Below are positions 6,211 through 39,626 of a DNA stretch of 39,626 nucleotides, in pieces; positions within the stretch are counted from its first letter, which is position 1, and each line of letters begins with the position of its first letter. The position numbers were made by a program, and so were the translations under genes. The stretch spans positions 1 through 39,626 of IMG/VR virus record IMGVR_UViG_3300017971_000139, one strand, 5' to 3'. The notes under the pieces were generated by a model, which made no database searches, was not told the DNA's origin, and saw only the letters and a list, made by a program, of their open reading frames with translations. The stretch comes from a virus.

Positions 6211-7005
6211 CTATTCCATGGTCACGCCGCGCATAAAATCTCTACTGGTCTTGGGTTGGTGTCTGGATACCCCGCCCGTATCGGTACTGTCATCGAGCTC
6301 GTCGTCCGGGTTAATCTTACCAGAGGGTCCCTGGCCCAATTTCGGCACAATCTTCTGCGCGATGTGCACAGCGGCATCTGTGTCGCTGAGGTTTGCTAGG
6401 TTATCAAGATCCAGGATATTGTCTGCCAGATGTTTAACAATCAACGGCCCTTGTTTATGCGTCAGGAGATGGTTAGCAACACCCGGTGCGAGAAACCCGG
6501 CAATCTGCTGCTCTGCAGCCTGTAGCTTCTGAGCGTCAACGCCCAGTTTACCTGCACGGTCATAGTACTTGGCAACCGTCTGCTGCATTTGCTGCTGATG
6601 ACCTGTCTGAACCGTCTGCTGCTGCTGCTGCGCTTGACGCTGACGTATTTGCTCTTGCTGGTCCCAGACTGCCTGGTCACGGATAGCCTTCTCCCGTGCT
6701 TGTACCTTGGCATTGAAATCAGGGTCCAAGGTATCCGGCATATCAGGGATAACAGGTTTCTGAGCTGCCTGGAGTTCGGCAATTTTGGCCTCTGCTTGCG
6801 CCAATTTTTCCTCCGCTGTGAGACGTCGAGTGCGCTCCTGCTGGTACTTCTGGTGCTGTCGATTGATAGCCCTCTGTACGGCTTCCTGGTTGATAAACTG
6901 CTCGCCAGCCTGTTGACCGCCTCTACCAGTATCATCGGTCTGCTGTTCACCAGCCTGTTGCTGTGTCTGATCCAGGTTGCCCTGTTGTTGTAAGTCCTCG
7001 TTCAT
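6211..7005 (-). CDS. Capsid scaffolding protein (P22 gp8-like position)
   Basis: This is a 264-residue, highly charged, Gln-rich protein. The first 45 residues are Q/G/D-rich and probably disordered. Residues about 50-85 and 105-160 are strongly helical, coiled-coil-like and full of Gln and Arg. The C-terminal end is basic (SRHQPKTSRDFMRGV), which in P22-type scaffolds is where coat is bound. The gene lies directly between portal and coat genes, with only 13 bases to coat. Sequence resemblance to P22 gp8 itself is low-complexity, so the call rests mainly on composition and synteny. Confidence 0.8.
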   Translation of the reverse strand: MNEDLQQQGNLDQTQQQAGEQQTDDTGRGGQQAGEQFINQEAVQRAINRQHQKYQQERTRRLTAEEKLAQAEAKIAELQAAQKPVIPDMPDTLDPDFNAKVQAREKAIRDQAVWDQQEQIRQRQAQQQQQTVQTGHQQQMQQTVAKYYDRAGKLGVDAQKLQAAEQQIAGFLAPGVANHLLTHKQGPLIVKHLADNILDLDNLANLSDTDAAVHIAQKIVPKLGQGPSGKINPDDELDDSTDTGGVSRHQPKTSRDFMRGVTME

Positions 7006-7034
7006 GGCTCTTACCTTTCCCGGCTATGCCGTGG

Positions 7035-7325
7035 TTAATAGAGTTTAAAGCCCATCTTTTTCTTACCAGTAAGCATATCGGACATGTCACCTGACATGCC
7101 TTTCAAACCTCCTTGAGACAGGCCTTTTGAAGCTCCGATACCCGTATCCTGCAATGAGTATCCAAGTTCATTGGTTGTTAATATATGAGCTTGCGCTGCG
7201 ATATCTTGTTCTGTCCGACCAGTATCCAGTTCAGTATCCGCGTCTTGTAGTCTCTGAATATATTGCTCATAGACTCGTTGATAGTCCATACGCTTCTGCT
7301 GTTGAAGGTCATATTTAGTCGGCAT
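7035..7325 (-). CDS. Hypothetical 96-aa protein between portal and scaffold
   Basis: The N-terminal 50 residues are helical and rich in Gln, Arg and Tyr (QQKRMDYQRVYEQYIQRL). The C-terminal half is Gly/Met/Ser-rich and ends in a basic K-K-K-M-G-F-K-L-Y. It overlaps the portal gene by 11 bases, so it is probably translationally coupled. P22 has no gene here. A minor head role is plausible by position; I do not recognise the family. Confidence 0.7.
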   Translation of the reverse strand: MPTKYDLQQQKRMDYQRVYEQYIQRLQDADTELDTGRTEQDIAAQAHILTTNELGYSLQDTGIGASKGLSQGGLKGMSGDMSDMLTGKKKMGFKLY

Positions 7326-9528
7326 CGTCGATACTCCCTCCGATTAATTCCGCTTGCCCCTGATACGCACCTACAGCTTGCGGAGATACAATAGCTTCGG
7401 CTCCAATAGCAGAACGAAGGAGATTGAGGGTCTCGGCTTGAGTTTTAAGCTGATCGAAGACAGCATTTTGAGAATCAATGACCATTTGTGCGACATTGGT
7501 CTGGATATCTCCCTGGATCTTCTGTATATCATTGGCCAGTTTAGCCATTTGGATTTCAGTATTTCGTTGATTCTGAGCTTGCTGCTCACGGAATTTCTTC
7601 CGTTCAAGGTCCATCTTCGCATTCCGCTCTTCGATCTTATTGAGCATATCCGTAGCTGCAGTTTCAGCCTTAAGAGCAGTAGCTTCAGCTTTCTGAGTTT
7701 CAGCTTGAGCTTGAGCGATAAGAGCTTGATCCATCGGTGAAGGTGGTTCTTTCGCCTGAGCTTCTTTAACCATTCGAAGAGCTTCTTTCTCTTCATCAGT
7801 TTGCTGAGATACCGGGATCATATCAGCCAGCAACATCTGGATACGCTTCCGAGCAGCAATCTCATCCATACCCGGAGCATTCATATTCTTTAAGAGGATA
7901 TCAGCGCCAATATCAAGGATGGATTTATCAACCTGGGCGAGAGTAGTAACTGTTTTAACTACCTGATCTTGGCGGTTTTGGAAGGCAGGACCAGCCGAGC
8001 ATGTCAGATCATACTTACCCCGAGAGAGATCATACACAATTACCGGACGCCCAGTTTGCTGATCAATAATCTTCTGATTAATTAAGACATCTTCTTCAAC
8101 GTCATCCGGGCCTACAATCCGGACTATGCGCTCTTGATCATAAACGAGAGGTACAGCCCGGACAATGATATCACCTGTACGCGCAATAGCCCGTTCAAGT
8201 GACCGGAACCACTTATACGTGCTTGAATCACCTTTATTCTGCAGACGTTCGATCGCGGCGCCCGTCTGCATGTAATTTGGGTCCTGGCCCATATTCGCGG
8301 AAAATAGACCCGCGATCTCATTGAGGTCAGCTGACGCATCCTGAGCTGTTTGCTGCAAGCCTTGATTGATCTGAGCGCCACCTTGCTGTACTGGAGGCGG
8401 AACTCCATCAATATGGTTATAGAATTGAACCGGATCTGCATTGGTATTTAATGTCGAAAGTTTATTACCGTGACCTTTAGCCTGTTCTTTAGTCATCCAG
8501 TATTTAGCACGGGGAGCAAGAGCTCCTTCTTCAATCTGTCGTGACCGCGCGTAATTATAGACTCGTTGAGAATCCATTAACTTCTCAACTACACCTTGGT
8601 AAACGATCTTATTTTCAGAGACCTTAAAATTACCATAAAGGGGAATGATTGGGATAGTTGAGAATACAGTTTCTTTCGCTTTGGTGAGCCATTTCGTGCC
8701 ATCGAATTTCCGTACCCAAAAGCGTGATTTCTTACTCTTACGCTCCTGTTGAACGGTTATTCCTTGTTGCTCGAGTTCGTCTCGAATGGTCTCGAATTTC
8801 TCATCAATTTCAACGATGGCACCATTGGACAATAGACCGAGGGTACGATTGGTTTGCTTACGATACCAGAATTCGGCAATAACGATTGCCTCTTTCTTAT
8901 ACCAGTAGACATTTGAGGTAAGCGTTTCCGATACAGACTCTCCACCGCCATTCGGGAACTCGGTATAGTAGTCATCGGGCTCCATGGGATCGAGTACGAA
9001 ACCCCAACGGGCGTCTGAAGCATCGGGTTTCTCATGATTTGGATCGAGCCATACTCGATCAATGTAGTTCGGTATTTCACGAATGAAGAGGTCTTGGTAA
9101 AATGAGTCGTCGTCGAACCAATCGTGGTCCACTCGCCAGCCAGACAAACCGCATTCAAGAGTACGCTGAGCAGAATCAATATAGATGTCAGAAGCTTTCG
9201 AAACATTCTGTATATTCCTCAATAATCCGTCATGGGTTTTAGCCAAGGCGTTGGTCGCGCCATCTCCTGCCGGCTTACATTTGATCGCGAATTCAGCTTG
9301 AGCCAGTTCACCAGAAATTTGATCAACAATAGAAGTACACTTGTCAAAAGTATACCGTGGACGATTGGTCATTCGGGATAAGATTTCAGGCTCCCATTGA
9401 CCATCACGCTTATTAACGAAGTGATCGGCCTCGCGGCAAGCTTCACGCATATCGAAATCAATCTTCTGTGCTTCTGCGAGTAGCTCTACTACATAGTTGT
9501 AGTCGTTGAATTTGCGTCTATCAGCCAT
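7315..9528 (-). CDS. Portal protein, P22 gp1-like
   Basis: It is about 737 residues; P22 gp1 has 725. The early region (A-D-R-R-K-F...), the D-Q-I-S-G-E-L-A-Q-A-E-F segment near residue 90, the G-W-R-V-D-H-D-W-F segment near 145 and the long Gln/Ala/Lys-rich C-terminal helix (residues about 570-690) fit the P22 portal family, including its barrel helix. The dodecameric portal is the DNA entry and exit channel and docks the terminase. The open frame extends to a TTG at 9549, but the ATG at 9528, placed as TAATATG after the terminase stop, is the more likely start. Confidence 0.9.
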   Translation of the reverse strand: MADRRKFNDYNYVVELLAEAQKIDFDMREACREADHFVNKRDGQWEPEILSRMTNRPRYTFDKCTSIVDQISGELAQAEFAIKCKPAGDGATNALAKTHDGLLRNIQNVSKASDIYIDSAQRTLECGLSGWRVDHDWFDDDSFYQDLFIREIPNYIDRVWLDPNHEKPDASDARWGFVLDPMEPDDYYTEFPNGGGESVSETLTSNVYWYKKEAIVIAEFWYRKQTNRTLGLLSNGAIVEIDEKFETIRDELEQQGITVQQERKSKKSRFWVRKFDGTKWLTKAKETVFSTIPIIPLYGNFKVSENKIVYQGVVEKLMDSQRVYNYARSRQIEEGALAPRAKYWMTKEQAKGHGNKLSTLNTNADPVQFYNHIDGVPPPVQQGGAQINQGLQQTAQDASADLNEIAGLFSANMGQDPNYMQTGAAIERLQNKGDSSTYKWFRSLERAIARTGDIIVRAVPLVYDQERIVRIVGPDDVEEDVLINQKIIDQQTGRPVIVYDLSRGKYDLTCSAGPAFQNRQDQVVKTVTTLAQVDKSILDIGADILLKNMNAPGMDEIAARKRIQMLLADMIPVSQQTDEEKEALRMVKEAQAKEPPSPMDQALIAQAQAETQKAEATALKAETAATDMLNKIEERNAKMDLERKKFREQQAQNQRNTEIQMAKLANDIQKIQGDIQTNVAQMVIDSQNAVFDQLKTQAETLNLLRSAIGAEAIVSPQAVGAYQGQAELIGGSIDDAD

Positions 9529-9529
9529 A

Positions 9530-10960
9530 TTAGCCCCATAAGGAGTCAAAGTTTATTTCAGGATCCGCCTCAGGAGGAGTCGGATTAAATGCGGTCATCA
9601 TGATGCCATCAGCCATATTCGGTGATTTTATCTTGAGTCGTCGCATTTCAGGTTTCGACATGATCTGTATAAGTCCGCTGCCATTTGGTTTTCTCGGTAC
9701 GCGACAGAGTTCTGCTCGAATAAGCGGTAAAATCGGGATATCAGGATCGAAGCTAAGCATTTTGTCTGGGTCGATGTATTTCCCTGTTTCAATCGCGAGA
9801 TAAGTATTACAAAGTCGGTCGCGGATGTTCCAGTATCTCTGGGCTCGCTTGTTTTTGAAGGTTTGTTTATTGGTTCGCGCTTTCTTACGATTTTCAAATG
9901 TCGCGGCTGTTCCTTCGTAGATGGCATTCGGGTCCTCAGGTGTTTCTGATCCTTTGAACAGCGACCAATCTATGTGCTTACCAGAGAAGGCATCATCTAC
10001 TTGCTTACGAAGGCCTATGCCGACTCCCTCTGCGTCCCAAGTGAAGTGATCAATATCCTCTTCAAGGGCTAAGTCTGTAGCCCAATCGCATCCAGTGTTA
10101 ATGTCGGAGAAATTTCGTGTTTCCACCCGAGTAATGACGCTTCCATGGCGGACGACAAATGCTTTATCGTCTGTTCCAAGGTCGCTCGGGTCATGTGCTC
10201 CGATTTTAAGCCCTCGTGGTTTGAAGCCGAGTCGTCCATGAGCGTTGATTGCAGCTTCAAACCACTCTGTCGGTATGATGGAATCTTCAACTGTGTCATC
10301 GTAGTACCCGAGCCAGACGTGATTGTATTTGTTTCTGGGCATGGCTTGAAAGTCATGCGCTCGTTCCTGTTCGAGTTCTGACGGGAACCATGGATTGTCG
10401 TAATAATTGATCCACGTGATATAATGGAGTTCATCTTCATAAAATCCGTCACGAAGGAGCTGGGTAAGATATGGCTCGATAAATCGTTCACTAATCGCAT
10501 CCGCCGCTGACATCGGGTTAAGGCTGAATATAAGTTCGGAATCAGTAGTCCGCAGTGTTGGAGTTAAGAGCTTCAGAGACTCCTTAGACGCAGTTTGAGC
10601 CTCTTCCCACCAGAATCTAGTGAACCCGTGCATAGATTTAACAGATTCTGGGTTACGTGCAAGCCCTTTGAACTTAAACAGTCCACCATCTGAATGCTTA
10701 ATCTGGTTATTCTTCGTATTGAAACCCCGAAGGGCCATCCGCTCAATTTCCTCCACCAGGAGGGAATATACGGAGTCGTCAATGGAGTTCTGGTACTCTC
10801 GAAAGCAGCCAACCTTATGCCTCTGTGTCTGAGCCAAGAAGAGTAGAATGTCTGCAATTGATTGTGACTTACCACCACCACGTCCTCCAAGGGCAATCTT
10901 AAACCGTTTCTTCTTGGTCAGAAACGGTTGTAGTTTCTTTGGTACTCTTAGATCCGGCAT
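9530..10960 (-). CDS. terL: Terminase large subunit (packaging ATPase-nuclease)
   Basis: The ATG at 10960 gives 476 residues; the frame extends further upstream but that part reads as an antisense-like Arg/Leu-rich stretch overlapping the small terminase. Walker A is GGRGGGKS at residues 25-32. Walker B with catalytic glutamate is FWWEEA, about 116-121. A coupling motif SLNP lies near 146-149. The RNase H-like nuclease domain shows acidic motifs in GAHDPSDLG, FTWDAEG and the final SPNMADGIMM. It pumps DNA into the prohead through the portal and cuts the concatemer. It overlaps the small terminase gene by 62 bases. Confidence 0.93.
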   Translation of the reverse strand: MPDLRVPKKLQPFLTKKKRFKIALGGRGGGKSQSIADILLFLAQTQRHKVGCFREYQNSIDDSVYSLLVEEIERMALRGFNTKNNQIKHSDGGLFKFKGLARNPESVKSMHGFTRFWWEEAQTASKESLKLLTPTLRTTDSELIFSLNPMSAADAISERFIEPYLTQLLRDGFYEDELHYITWINYYDNPWFPSELEQERAHDFQAMPRNKYNHVWLGYYDDTVEDSIIPTEWFEAAINAHGRLGFKPRGLKIGAHDPSDLGTDDKAFVVRHGSVITRVETRNFSDINTGCDWATDLALEEDIDHFTWDAEGVGIGLRKQVDDAFSGKHIDWSLFKGSETPEDPNAIYEGTAATFENRKKARTNKQTFKNKRAQRYWNIRDRLCNTYLAIETGKYIDPDKMLSFDPDIPILPLIRAELCRVPRKPNGSGLIQIMSKPEMRRLKIKSPNMADGIMMTAFNPTPPEADPEINFDSLWG

Positions 10961-11483
10961 TGTATAGTCCAAATGGTGAAGGGTTGGGATCCGGCAAATC
11001 GCCGTCGTCAGGCGGAGGCGGATTATCCTCCGGATTAACAAACGTGATCGTCCACTGACGATCCTCATCCTGGATACCCTCGTCCCGCGCTTCTTTCGCA
11101 GCCGAGGTCTGAATAGCAGTTTCAAAGATCTTGTTGGAAGATTGGATAGTGGAAATGGCCCGAGCAATCCGTCCTATAGCCTGGTCGCCCAGAACCATAT
11201 CATTCATTACCAGGAGGTCTTCAATTTTACCAATGAGGTCGGACTCGATCTTCTGGATTCGGGCGAACGTCGAGATCGCCCGGCGCGACATCAAAACAGA
11301 TAACTCTCTGCGTACTTTGGAGTAGAACTCTTGGTCATTGTCAGGCGTGTGCTGGACCCAGTTTTGGTCGGCAGCTAAACGCTCGATCTCCATGATGGAA
11401 AAACCGTATTTTGCACACAGCGACGGTATGTCGGCGCCCGTGAACTCATATTCTAATCGGAGGTAATCTAAGTCCGTGATCAT
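10899..11483 (-). CDS. terS: Terminase small subunit
   Basis: It is 194 residues from the ATG at 11483, which has GGAG six bases upstream; longer versions would start inside the late promoter. The N-terminus looks like a helix-turn-helix of the small-terminase kind (LRLEYEFTGADIPSLCAKYGF). The middle (about 60-130) is a long helical region suited to ring assembly, and the tail is Pro/Asp-rich. It should recognise the packaging site and load the large subunit. As the first gene of the late operon, directly upstream of terL, its call is supported by synteny; sequence identity to P22 gp3 is not evident. Confidence 0.8.
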   Translation of the reverse strand: MITDLDYLRLEYEFTGADIPSLCAKYGFSIMEIERLAADQNWVQHTPDNDQEFYSKVRRELSVLMSRRAISTFARIQKIESDLIGKIEDLLVMNDMVLGDQAIGRIARAISTIQSSNKIFETAIQTSAAKEARDEGIQDEDRQWTITFVNPEDNPPPPDDGDLPDPNPSPFGLYNAGSKSTKETTTVSDQEETV

Positions 11484-11532: not shown

Positions 11533-11561
11533 ATTATAGCATGAATGTCATTCAGTGTAAA
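11533..11561 (-). promoter_or_regulatory. Late-operon sigma-70 promoter with internal operator
   Basis: Reading the minus strand, TTTACA (11561-11556) is followed after exactly 17 bases by TATAAT (11538-11533), preceded by TGC, an extended -10. Transcription would start near 11526, just ahead of the small terminase start at 11483. The spacer contains a perfect 13-bp dyad, TGAATGNCATTCA (11542-11554), of the type repeated in the array at 11764-12049, so the promoter is probably controlled by the same regulator. Confidence 0.85.
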
Positions 11562-11600
11562 CACTTACATTAATTATAATTATCCAGATTTGCGGGATGA

Positions 11601-11690
11601 CTTACTTACATCGTACGTAAGAGTTTCAAAAACAAGCCTTGGCAGAGAAAACCCTTACTTACGTACAATGTAAGAGTTTCAAAAACAAGC
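11601..11690. repeat. Two copies of a ~37-bp repeat with TTAC-N7-GTAA dyad
   Basis: Two direct repeats 53 bp apart (11601-11637 and 11654-11690) each begin with CTTACTTAC. Each then has seven variable bases followed by a 21-bp block, identical in both copies, that starts GTAAGAGTTTC. Within each, TTAC-N7-GTAA forms a dyad (11606-11620 and 11659-11673). They lie just upstream of the late promoter, a natural activator or repressor position. A related site recurs at 13057-13078. Confidence 0.8.
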
Positions 11691-11763
11691 TTTACAAGAA
11701 AAACTGACCTTCACGATGTATGAGTAATCGTAAAAGTAGAGTATATGGGGCCCTCAAGCCCGG

Positions 11764-12049
11764 TGAATCCCACTCATTGAATGAATATCACTCAGTGAGT
11801 GGTGTTCAGCCAATGAGCATCACTCATTTTTTAAATAAGCCTCATTCACCGTATATTTTTATTTCATTGAATGATATTCATTTAATAAATTCCACTCATT
11901 TAATTTTGTTCATTCAATAAATATTACTCATTAATTATTTTATCTTTACTCGTTGAATGAGTAATACTTATTCAGTGATGTTCACTCACCCACTATAAGT
12001 GAATATCATTCATTAACTTTGTTGATATTTATTTTATAAATCATATTCA
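11764..12049. repeat. Array of about twelve 13-bp dyads (TGAAT-N3-ATTCA type)
   Basis: Sites matching T-R-A-R-T/C-N3-R-Y-T-C-A begin at 11764, 11782, 11796, 11814, 11836, 11868, 11886, 11918, 11958 (ends TTA), 11976 (weak left arm), 12000 and 12037. Those at 11868 and 12000 have perfect arms; others carry one to three mismatches. Several neighbours are 18 bp apart. The exact dyad also sits inside the late promoter spacer (11542-11554). The array fills the gap between the divergent promoters. It probably binds a dimeric regulator or a replication initiator. Confidence 0.8.
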
Positions 12050-12099
12050 TTTTATAAATAATTAATTTAAATTAAATTTCATTTTGCTACATTGTGGTA

Positions 12100-12128
12100 T
12101 TTACAAATAAATTTTTTAGATATATAAT
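12100..12128 (+). promoter_or_regulatory. Early sigma-70 promoter
   Basis: TTTACA at 12100-12105, then 17 bases, then TATAAT at 12123-12128: eleven of twelve consensus bases with ideal spacing in an AT-rich context. It should drive the HTH gene at 12275 and be active immediately after infection with host RNA polymerase. The leader from about 12135 to 12274 contains a strong AAAGGAGGTG at about 12192 that does not serve an evident gene. Confidence 0.88.
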
Positions 12129-12274: not shown

Positions 12275-12640
12275 ATGACTGACACTAACAAATACGCCAA
12301 CGCCATCAACGCCATTCTTGACACACTGGATCCCAACACCACTAACATCATTCATGAGTATGTAGAAGCTGATGACTTCAGTAATGTTGATGAAGCTGCA
12401 GCACAGCTGAAAGCAGTGTATGAAACCTACTACACTACCTCAACTCAGAAAATCAAGAGGAAAGAACAAATCCTCACTGAGCTGAGAGAAAATGGTGATA
12501 CCACAATGCAGGATATGGCTGCTAAGTTTGGTATCTCTAGAAGGAATGTATCATCCCAGCTGACATACCTCAGACGTGATGGCCATGTGATTGATGTTCT
12601 TACCAGAGGGAAAGACAAAGTAATCCATCTCAGTGAATAA
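12275..12640 (+). CDS. Winged-HTH early regulator (121 aa)
   Basis: The ATG at 12275 follows AAAAGGAG; the frame is open further upstream, but that part lacks coding character. Residues 1-55 are acidic and helical. Residues about 68-118 form a winged helix-turn-helix (TMQDMAAKFGISRRNVSSQL, then a YLRRDGHVIDV wing). It has its own near-consensus promoter and a strong terminator, so it is a monocistronic early unit beside the dyad array. This makes it the leading candidate to bind the array and switch the late promoter; that is inference. The HTH resembles that of the protein at 19236. Confidence 0.85.
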   Translation: MTDTNKYANAINAILDTLDPNTTNIIHEYVEADDFSNVDEAAAQLKAVYETYYTTSTQKIKRKEQILTELRENGDTTMQDMAAKFGISRRNVSSQLTYLRRDGHVIDVLTRGKDKVIHLSE

Positions 12641-12705: not shown

Positions 12706-12837
12706 ATGCTGGAGTTCTTGGGCAATGCCTTCGGGGCCTTTATCACCGGCTTGGTTGGGATAGTAATGCTGGGTATCTTCCTCTTGTTCCCCATCGTATG
12801 GTTCGGTGGCATGATACTGCTGGCCATCTACCAGTAA
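12706..12837 (+). CDS. Small membrane protein (43 aa)
   Basis: The ATG at 12706 follows GAAAGGA at a good distance. The 43-residue product is nearly all hydrophobic, with one long or two short membrane segments (FITGLVGIVMLGIFLLFP, then VWFGGMILLAIY). It sits directly after the terminator and is followed by a perfect hairpin. Codon choice is G+C-rich compared with the surrounding DNA. Size and hydrophobicity would suit a small holin, a superinfection-exclusion peptide or a membrane toxin, but nothing selects between these. Confidence 0.7.
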   Translation: MLEFLGNAFGAFITGLVGIVMLGIFLLFPIVWFGGMILLAIYQ

Positions 12838-12884: not shown

Positions 12885-13007
12885 CCCACTGGAATAACCT
12901 CCGATCGTTCAGTGGGTCACTTCTACTCATACACGCGCGCTTTCCCCACTGGGAACTACAACCGATCGTCCAGTGGGTCACTTCCGATCGCACAATGGGT
13001 CACTTCC
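12885..13007. repeat. Three repeats of CGATCG-N2-CARTGGGTCACTTC with hairpins
   Basis: The core lies at 12902-12923, 12963-12984 and 12985-13006. The first two copies are preceded by CCCACTG, which is the reverse complement of the CAGTGGG in the core, so each can fold back on itself (12885-12916, 12945-12977). The third lacks the left arm. They may be iterons or protein-binding sites. Confidence 0.75.
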
Positions 13008-13056
13008 ACCCGTAAAACAGTGAATGACATTTATTTTTTGAATCATCCGTCAGGAT

Positions 13057-19235: not shown

Positions 19236-19787
19236 ATGGCAACCCCGAATCGCGAGAAGATCAAGGAAATGATCGAGAGCGGAACCTACACCCGGAAAAT
19301 GATCCAGGAAGAATTGGGTCTTTCCGCCGCCTCCTTGGCCACCAACTTCAGCTACCTGCGGATGATGGGTTTCTACCCGATTGTCGCGGAAGAGAACAAG
19401 GAATCCGGTATCCTGTCTCTGACCGACAAAGAAACCTGGGACACCATGAAAGCGGCCAGCGCCGGCGCCCGTTCCACCGCCGCCGCGAAAACCCCGAAGG
19501 AACGTTACGAGGCCCTCGACAAACGTCTGACCCGGGTTTCCAAGGCTCTGAAGCTGGCGGCCGATCGTGCCGCGGCCAATGAAGATGTCGAACTGCTGCA
19601 GCTCAAGAAAGACCGTGCGGTTCTCGACGTCAAGATCACCGAGATCGAGATCAAAGATCTGACCTCCAGCGACGAATACATCGAATTCATGCGGAATTAC
19701 GATGACTCCGCCGAAGATGAGCTCGATGAAGACGTCGAAGTCGAGGATGGCGATGAGGAATTTGACGAGGATGGCGACCTCGAATAG
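19236..19787 (+). CDS. HTH protein with coiled coil and acidic tail (183 aa)
   Basis: Residues about 8-45 form a helix-turn-helix (YTRKMIQEELGLSAASLATN, then a YLRMMGFYP wing), related in outline to the early regulator at 12275. Residues about 85-150 are Ala/Lys/Glu-rich and helical. The last 30 residues are nearly all Asp and Glu. Third positions are strongly G+C-rich, unlike neighbours; it has its own candidate promoter, a strong leader and a downstream 14-bp hairpin, so it is likely abundant. A chromosome-like DNA-binding protein, a DNA mimic or a replication factor with an SSB-like tail are all possible. No family is recognised. Confidence 0.8.
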   Translation: MATPNREKIKEMIESGTYTRKMIQEELGLSAASLATNFSYLRMMGFYPIVAEENKESGILSLTDKETWDTMKAASAGARSTAAAKTPKERYEALDKRLTRVSKALKLAADRAAANEDVELLQLKKDRAVLDVKITEIEIKDLTSSDEYIEFMRNYDDSAEDELDEDVEVEDGDEEFDEDGDLE

Positions 19788-39343: not shown

Positions 39344-39626
39344 TTATCTCCCGTGTCTAGGGGTACAACGGTAATCAATAGTGATCTCATGGCCGTACTG
39401 ACCACCTTTATTACCTTGTATATCTTCAATCGATACTAGAAAAACACTTTTACCTTGTGTCACAAACTTGGCATTCGGGTTTGGTGAATGATTGGTATAA
39501 CGCCCAAGAAGTGTTCTCAGACCCTCTCTTGCAGCGAGACCAATAAGCTCACCTCGTGGTATATTACCAGTGGCAAAAATTCCTTCGCCATGAATAGGTG
39601 ATGGATAAACAGCCCATTGGTATGAC
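39344..39626 (-). CDS. Cupin-SET domain protein, C-terminal part (SET domain)
   Basis: This is the other end of the gene that begins at 698. Read from 39626 downward it gives the last 93 or so residues of the 285-aa product, including the whole SET-like region: HGEGIFAT, IPRGELIGL, GRYTNHSPNPN, a VFLVSIEDI strand and GHEITIDYRC, ending PRHGR and TAA at 39344. The N-terminal cupin-like part lies at 128-698. The stop is three bases before the start of the 1018-aa ejection protein gene. Bases 39504-39626 duplicate 1-123. Confidence 0.85.
   Translation of the reverse strand, partial: SYQWAVYPSPIHGEGIFATGNIPRGELIGLAAREGLRTLLGRYTNHSPNPNAKFVTQGKSVFLVSIEDIQGNKGGQYGHEITIDYRCTPRHGR
39504..39626. repeat. 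Terminal direct repeat, right copy (circle overlap)
   Basis: Identical to 1-123. Removing one copy gives a closed circle of 39,503 bp with all junction-spanning codons in frame. Confidence 0.95.

Follow-up and report, generated by a model that had tools for sequence, protein, structure and literature searches.

The only divergent region of this phage genome appears to be its master control region, with a multi-site operator array placed between the early and late promoters and the winged-helix product of the first early gene (hereafter wHTH) as its likeliest binder. From the comparisons below, we put the probability of this reading at about 0.5. The region probably governs the change from early to late gene expression, as had been proposed from the sequence alone.

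A dyad array in a single divergent region

The window, i.e., the whole stretch of DNA analysed, comprises the 39,626 bases of a viral record. An exact direct terminal repeat of 123 bases (1-123 = 39504-39626) makes it probable that the genome is complete, either circularised or terminally redundant. Read as a circle, it falls into two gene blocks with a single point of divergence, which is the region described here. The late block lies on the minus strand, extending from the terminase small-subunit gene (approximately 11.5 kb) across the record ends to approximately 30.0 kb, and includes terminase small-subunit, portal, and further structural-type genes. Its first gene, for the terminase small subunit (10899-11483, minus strand), was assigned by its position before the large-subunit gene and by homology to the gene in L007/L172. 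The early block occupies 12.15-29.65 kb on the plus strand and encodes a primase-helicase, an exonuclease, a DNA polymerase, a ligase, and a helicase. Neither a phage RNA polymerase or sigma factor nor a lysogeny gene was recognised among the scanned proteins. Named phages contained no close DNA relatives, and single-query searches with the terminase small subunit and with the primase returned no relatives.

Pattern scans and shuffles identified approximately 13 dyads of the form TGAAT-N3-ATTCA at 11764-12049, in line with the earlier count of about twelve sites in 286 bp. Ten sites have at most one mismatch (starting at 11764, 11782, 11796, 11814, 11868, 11886, 11918, 11958, 12000, and 12037), and the others have two (11832, 11900, and 11972/11976). 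Exact copies of TGARTNNNAYTCA occur at five sites in the 39.6-kb genome, all within 11542-12012. With up to one mismatch there are 12 sites genome-wide (11542, the ten in the array, and 13021), 11 of which are confined to one 510-bp stretch (11542-12049). For the interval 11750-12060, the 4 exact sites and 10 sites with at most one mismatch compare with means of 0.013 and 0.16 and maxima of 1 and 2 in 1000 dinucleotide shuffles, and a reversed-pattern control gave 0-1 match genome-wide. The consensus is thus far denser in the array region than in shuffles or elsewhere in the genome; an equal density would have spoken against the sequence-only reading. The outlying dyad, TGAATGACATTTA (13021-13033), precedes a second early promoter, predicted at approximately 13470. 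The gap that follows the first early genes also contains, at 12903-13010, three repeats of the CAGTGGGTCACTTC type, with CCGATCG nearby.

The commonest step between array sites is 18 bp, with five such pairs (11764-11782, 11796-11814, 11814-11832, 11868-11886, and 11900-11918), as had been noticed earlier; 14-bp steps are also present. Dense repeats of this kind could also form a replication origin of the iteron type, an alternative raised earlier alongside the switch; a phage initiator would then bind them, and any control of transcription would be secondary. The AT-richest 300 bp of the genome (11851-12150, 82% AT) fall in the array region, and a small HTH gene and the primase-helicase gene come next in the early block, here and in relatives. 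Known iterons, however, are direct repeats approximately two helical turns apart, whereas the units here are palindromic dyads with distances of 14, 15, 17, 18, and 37 bp, which leave residual angles of 120-257 degrees from whole turns. Furthermore, the sites occupy promoter elements as well, and cumulative GC skew has no clear turn at the array. Of that alternative, the AT-richness and repeat density hold up and the helical phasing does not; we consider an origin improbable.

The array lies between two divergent predicted sigma-70 promoters, late and early, both of the form TTTACA-17-TATAAT and both called from consensus matches. The predicted late promoter (11533-11561, minus strand) consists of TTTACA at 11561-11556, the 17-bp spacer CTGAATGACATTCATGC, and TATAAT at 11538-11533. 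A perfect dyad, TGAATGTCATTCA (11542-11554), is contained wholly in this spacer; the earlier claim of a perfect copy there is therefore exact, for a promoter that is itself predicted. A randomly placed leader site would hit the spacer approximately 2% of the time. On the other side, the predicted early promoter (12100-12128, plus strand) is abutted at its -35 by an isolated dyad, TGCTACATTGTGGTA (12085-12099), which represents a second word and is related to TACCAC-N3-GTGGTA. L159 and L168 have this CTACATTGTGGTA site at the same position, with an almost identical sequence. A third word, CTTACRT-N3-AYGTAAG, occurs twice upstream of the late promoter, as CTTACATCGTACGTAAG (11605-11621) and CTTACGTACAATGTAAG (11658-11674), and all three words of the window have a 3-bp centre. 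The TGCTACATTGTGGTA site at the early -35 and the third-word pair suggest that further regulators are at work. One of these is possibly a second wHTH protein (19236-19787, plus strand), which homology comparison relates weakly to the first.

Relatives found by protein and by DNA pattern

The candidate array binder is the product of the first early gene (12275-12640, plus strand), a coiled coil followed by a winged helix according to profiles, homologs, and a structure model. Two broad HTH profiles scored above their cut-offs (HTH_24, 28.2 bits against 21.9; HTH_11, 28.2 against 25), and residues 61-120, which follow a long helix, reached a pLDDT of 94-97 in the AlphaFold2 model; fold and profiles place the protein in the general winged-helix DNA-binding class. 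Its structure and profile matches are to generic winged-helix proteins only (BirA, NiaR, MarR, and ArsR proteins), and all named NCBIfam families stayed below their cut-offs. ArsR/SmtB membership was rejected (NF033788, 27.3 bits against a cut-off of 55). Directly 3' of the gene, a short ORF of 43 aa (12706-12837) reads as a membrane peptide. As a single query, the wHTH protein of the window retrieved no relatives from viral contigs or from named phages, and a profile was required; the wHTH protein of a relative found no family member among named phages and plasmids at the thresholds used.

With a profile built from three wHTH members, the protein alone led to 24 loci among the viral contigs. 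In the 17 loci that have both genes, sites were counted between the terminase small-subunit gene and the wHTH gene, and these 16.4 kb contained 73 TRARTNNNAYTYA sites where shuffles gave 1.8; the flanks of the same loci contained 19 in 157 kb. When the discovery loci (the window, L171, and L172) were left out, the remaining 14 loci still had 52 sites against approximately 1.4 expected (by subtraction). Conservation in related phages, which had been named as a check, is therefore borne out, and the array is conserved in kind among relatives found via the wHTH protein. Neighbouring sites in eight of the relatives' loci are most often 18, 37, or 36 bp apart. Base frequencies in the relatives contain a weaker TGA 18 bp downstream and a weaker TCA upstream of the sites, and the 18-bp register is therefore not a product of the search pattern. 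The gene order terminase <- array -> wHTH -> small HTH -> primase is kept in most loci. Predicted early and late promoters flank the arrays in many relatives, with similar predicted promoters (TTTACAAAG...CTATGATATAAT) ahead of the terminase genes. In L163 the early -35 is directly flanked by a TGAAT dyad, at the position of TGCTACATTGTGGTA in the window. The dyad in the late spacer was seen in this phage only, the late spacers of the relatives being without one. In L152, L154, and L171, a hairpin with the constant centre AACAATTAAGTT lies between the early promoter and the wHTH start; its arms vary but stay complementary (GATC.., GATT.., GAAT..), and it looks like a conserved leader element.

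Given that most wHTH relatives have the array beside their terminase small-subunit gene, it might instead be a pac-type packaging site for that subunit. However, the array of L117 is approximately 11 kb from the terminase genes, and no recognised terminase gene was seen near the array in L092, L098, and L100 (read by eye). Related terminase small subunits also go with different words, and packaging leaves the promoter-spacer copy unexplained, so that we hold this function to be highly improbable. A wHTH gene beside tandem sites, with arrays of approximately 20 units in relatives, also recalls TubR-type systems; the wHTH protein would then bind the array as a site for DNA organisation, centromere-like or otherwise. 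No partition NTPase was recognised in a non-exhaustive scan of the proteins, and such a role seems to us more doubtful still.

Arrays were also sought by DNA pattern. When viral contigs were scanned for pairs of adjacent TGAAT-N3-ATTCA dyads at 18-bp spacing, 14 stretches emerged, four of which (L088, L089, L091, and L094) were rejected as chance matches inside what looks like one coding sequence. There are 8-10 strict sites in L095, L097, L098, and L100 and fewer in L090/L096, L092, L093, L099, and L101, and a three-site scan added L117, L118, and L119. Homologs of the wHTH protein adjoin the dyads in L007, L090/L096, L092, and L097. On the other hand, eight array-bearing viral contigs have no detectable wHTH homolog, and some of them encode other possible HTH proteins beside the array. 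Profile comparison of the wHTH family gave no support for a relationship with the array neighbours of L100 and L093, with the HTH protein before the primase, or with the terminase small subunit; a comparison of the L092 and L101 proteins was not convincing. Most relatives of the terminase large subunit have no dyads upstream of the terminase. Two further observations concern these contigs: in L117 (approximately 610-680), four tandem copies of the 18-bp CAAAAATTGTCATTTATA lie directly beside TGAAT dyads, and L095, a 110-kb contig that encodes several similar repeat proteins in a row besides its array, has a match at 7002-7487 to the Thoeris inhibitor family Tad5 (PF25190).

The word itself changes between relatives. 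TACCAC-N3-GTGGTA arrays occupy the same place in L153, L154, and L168, and L159 has both TACCAC and TGAAT words. The array word is ATACAC-N3-GTGTAT in L166 and TTTACAT-N3-ATGTAAA in L007/L172, with the L007 copies upstream of the terminase small-subunit gene, and L162 has a 17/34-bp unit. Among L171, L155, L162, L153, and L154, the large terminase is 82-87% shared, yet the wHTH proteins are only 52-63% identical and the arrays differ. Judged from these comparisons, the dyad words apparently turn over quickly between related phages.

In the loci with other words (L153, L154, L168, L162, and L166), the recognition helix NVSSQLTYL is nevertheless nearly unchanged. With the discovery loci left out, the residue that opens it is threonine in all eight loci with the TGAAT word and in two of the nine loci without it; conversely, the word occurs in 8 of 10 threonine loci and in none of the 7 others (Fisher p 0.002, for a residue picked post hoc in an otherwise nearly constant helix, and ignoring shared ancestry). 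In L162, threonine is kept and the TGAAT word is missing. A link between threonine at the helix start and the TGAAT word is therefore suggestive only.

The uncoupling of word and wHTH protein in the eight contigs and in L162 is what would be expected if the dyads were bound by another phage HTH protein or by a host regulator, the wHTH protein being a mere neighbour within one phage lineage. Pairs of the word at 18-bp spacing are also found near TetR-family-like genes in some bacteria (L105, L106, and L107, where the pairs are isolated; read by eye), and unrelated regulators may use the same word. Against this stand the strong enrichment of sites beside the wHTH gene and the correlation with the helix residue. 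Furthermore, a search of 257 Gb of bacterial genomes with the two-site pattern turned up 15 stretches, all single pairs except for one contig that also exists as a virus record. Because the paired word is so rare there, a common host regulator is unlikely; ArgR boxes, for comparison, have a 4-bp gap and the dyads here a 3-bp gap. Overall, we regard a different binder as unlikely, and the wHTH protein remains our preferred candidate. The HTH proteins first listed as candidates thus narrow to the one at 12275, whose family tracks the array, and the protein at 19236 is its weak second relative.

A possible early/late switch

Binding of the array by the wHTH protein is suggested by their co-occurrence, and repression, with one dimer per dyad, is what we infer. 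A palindromic site in the spacer of an ideally spaced promoter is normally a repressor site. Because the dyad lies within an ideal 17-bp spacer, we take the wHTH dimer as a putative late-promoter repressor, and this spacing makes repression a better fit than MerR-type activation. The 12275-12640 protein, made early, would bind TGAATGACATTCA, its dimers occupying the TGAAT-N3-ATTCA dyads in an 18-bp register. A dimer on the spacer dyad would block RNA polymerase at the late promoter and keep the late genes off. The array would act as a store of sites that sets the amount of free wHTH protein, and replication would multiply the arrays until sites outnumber the limiting protein and the late promoter is freed. 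That the array works as a titrating counter of genome copies is speculative, and we rate it rather unlikely. A new type of early/late switch, in which a fast-evolving wHTH protein and its operator words change together and the array counts replicated genomes, is a conjecture to which we give little credence in this full form.

We favour the switch reading because of the site statistics and their recurrence beside the wHTH gene in independently found loci, the dyad at the early -35 in L163, and the conserved gene order. The helix residue that tracks the word, the confident wHTH model with its long preceding helix, and the single divergent region of an apparently complete genome favour it as well. 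The reading is weakened because the late spacers of the relatives are without a dyad and because a repressor that just accumulates requires a release step. The switch as first proposed is supported by the divergent predicted promoters, the spacer copy, and the recurring terminase <- array -> wHTH order; the idea of one protein and one word fits poorly, since other words go with nearly the same helices and eight contigs have no detectable wHTH homolog.

Should the array be bound by the wHTH protein, approximately 20 uncultured phage contigs would share a regulator family and a type of control region that are both undescribed. Their operator words (TGAAT, TACCAC, CTTACRT, and ATACAC), set against nearly constant recognition helices, would form a natural series in which it could be tested how operator specificity shifts among related regulators. 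It could also be tested whether operator number multiplied by genome copies times the late genes without a phage polymerase or sigma factor.

Comparison with known systems

Among the titles and abstracts listed for operator arrays, for divergent promoters, and for TubR, stoperators, and titration, none describes an equivalent. The DNA-binding domain fold is shared with ArsR/MarR/BirA-type winged-helix regulators, but the wHTH protein falls below the ArsR-type model cut-off (27 against 55 bits) and has extra N-terminal helices. Iteron origins of plasmids and phages likewise consist of dense short repeats in AT-rich DNA, but theirs are direct repeats, and the dyads here are out of helical phase.

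The closest known systems are multi-operator phage immunity regions and the stoperators of mycobacteriophages. In lambda-like immunity regions, divergent promoters enclose several related dyads, of which one overlaps a promoter, and the gene of a DNA-binding protein is adjacent. The window has the same arrangement, its operator dyads lying between divergent predicted promoters and at least one of them overlapping a promoter. It differs in having approximately 13 sites rather than three per operator, in its unrelated, winged-helix protein, and in a putative control of early and late blocks rather than of lysogeny and lysis. With the stoperators of cluster A mycobacteriophages, the window shares many short copies of one repressor word per genome (PMC9283540, PMC6550527). 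Stoperators are asymmetric and scattered across the genome (PMC9283540), whereas the sites of the window are palindromic and restricted to one control region.
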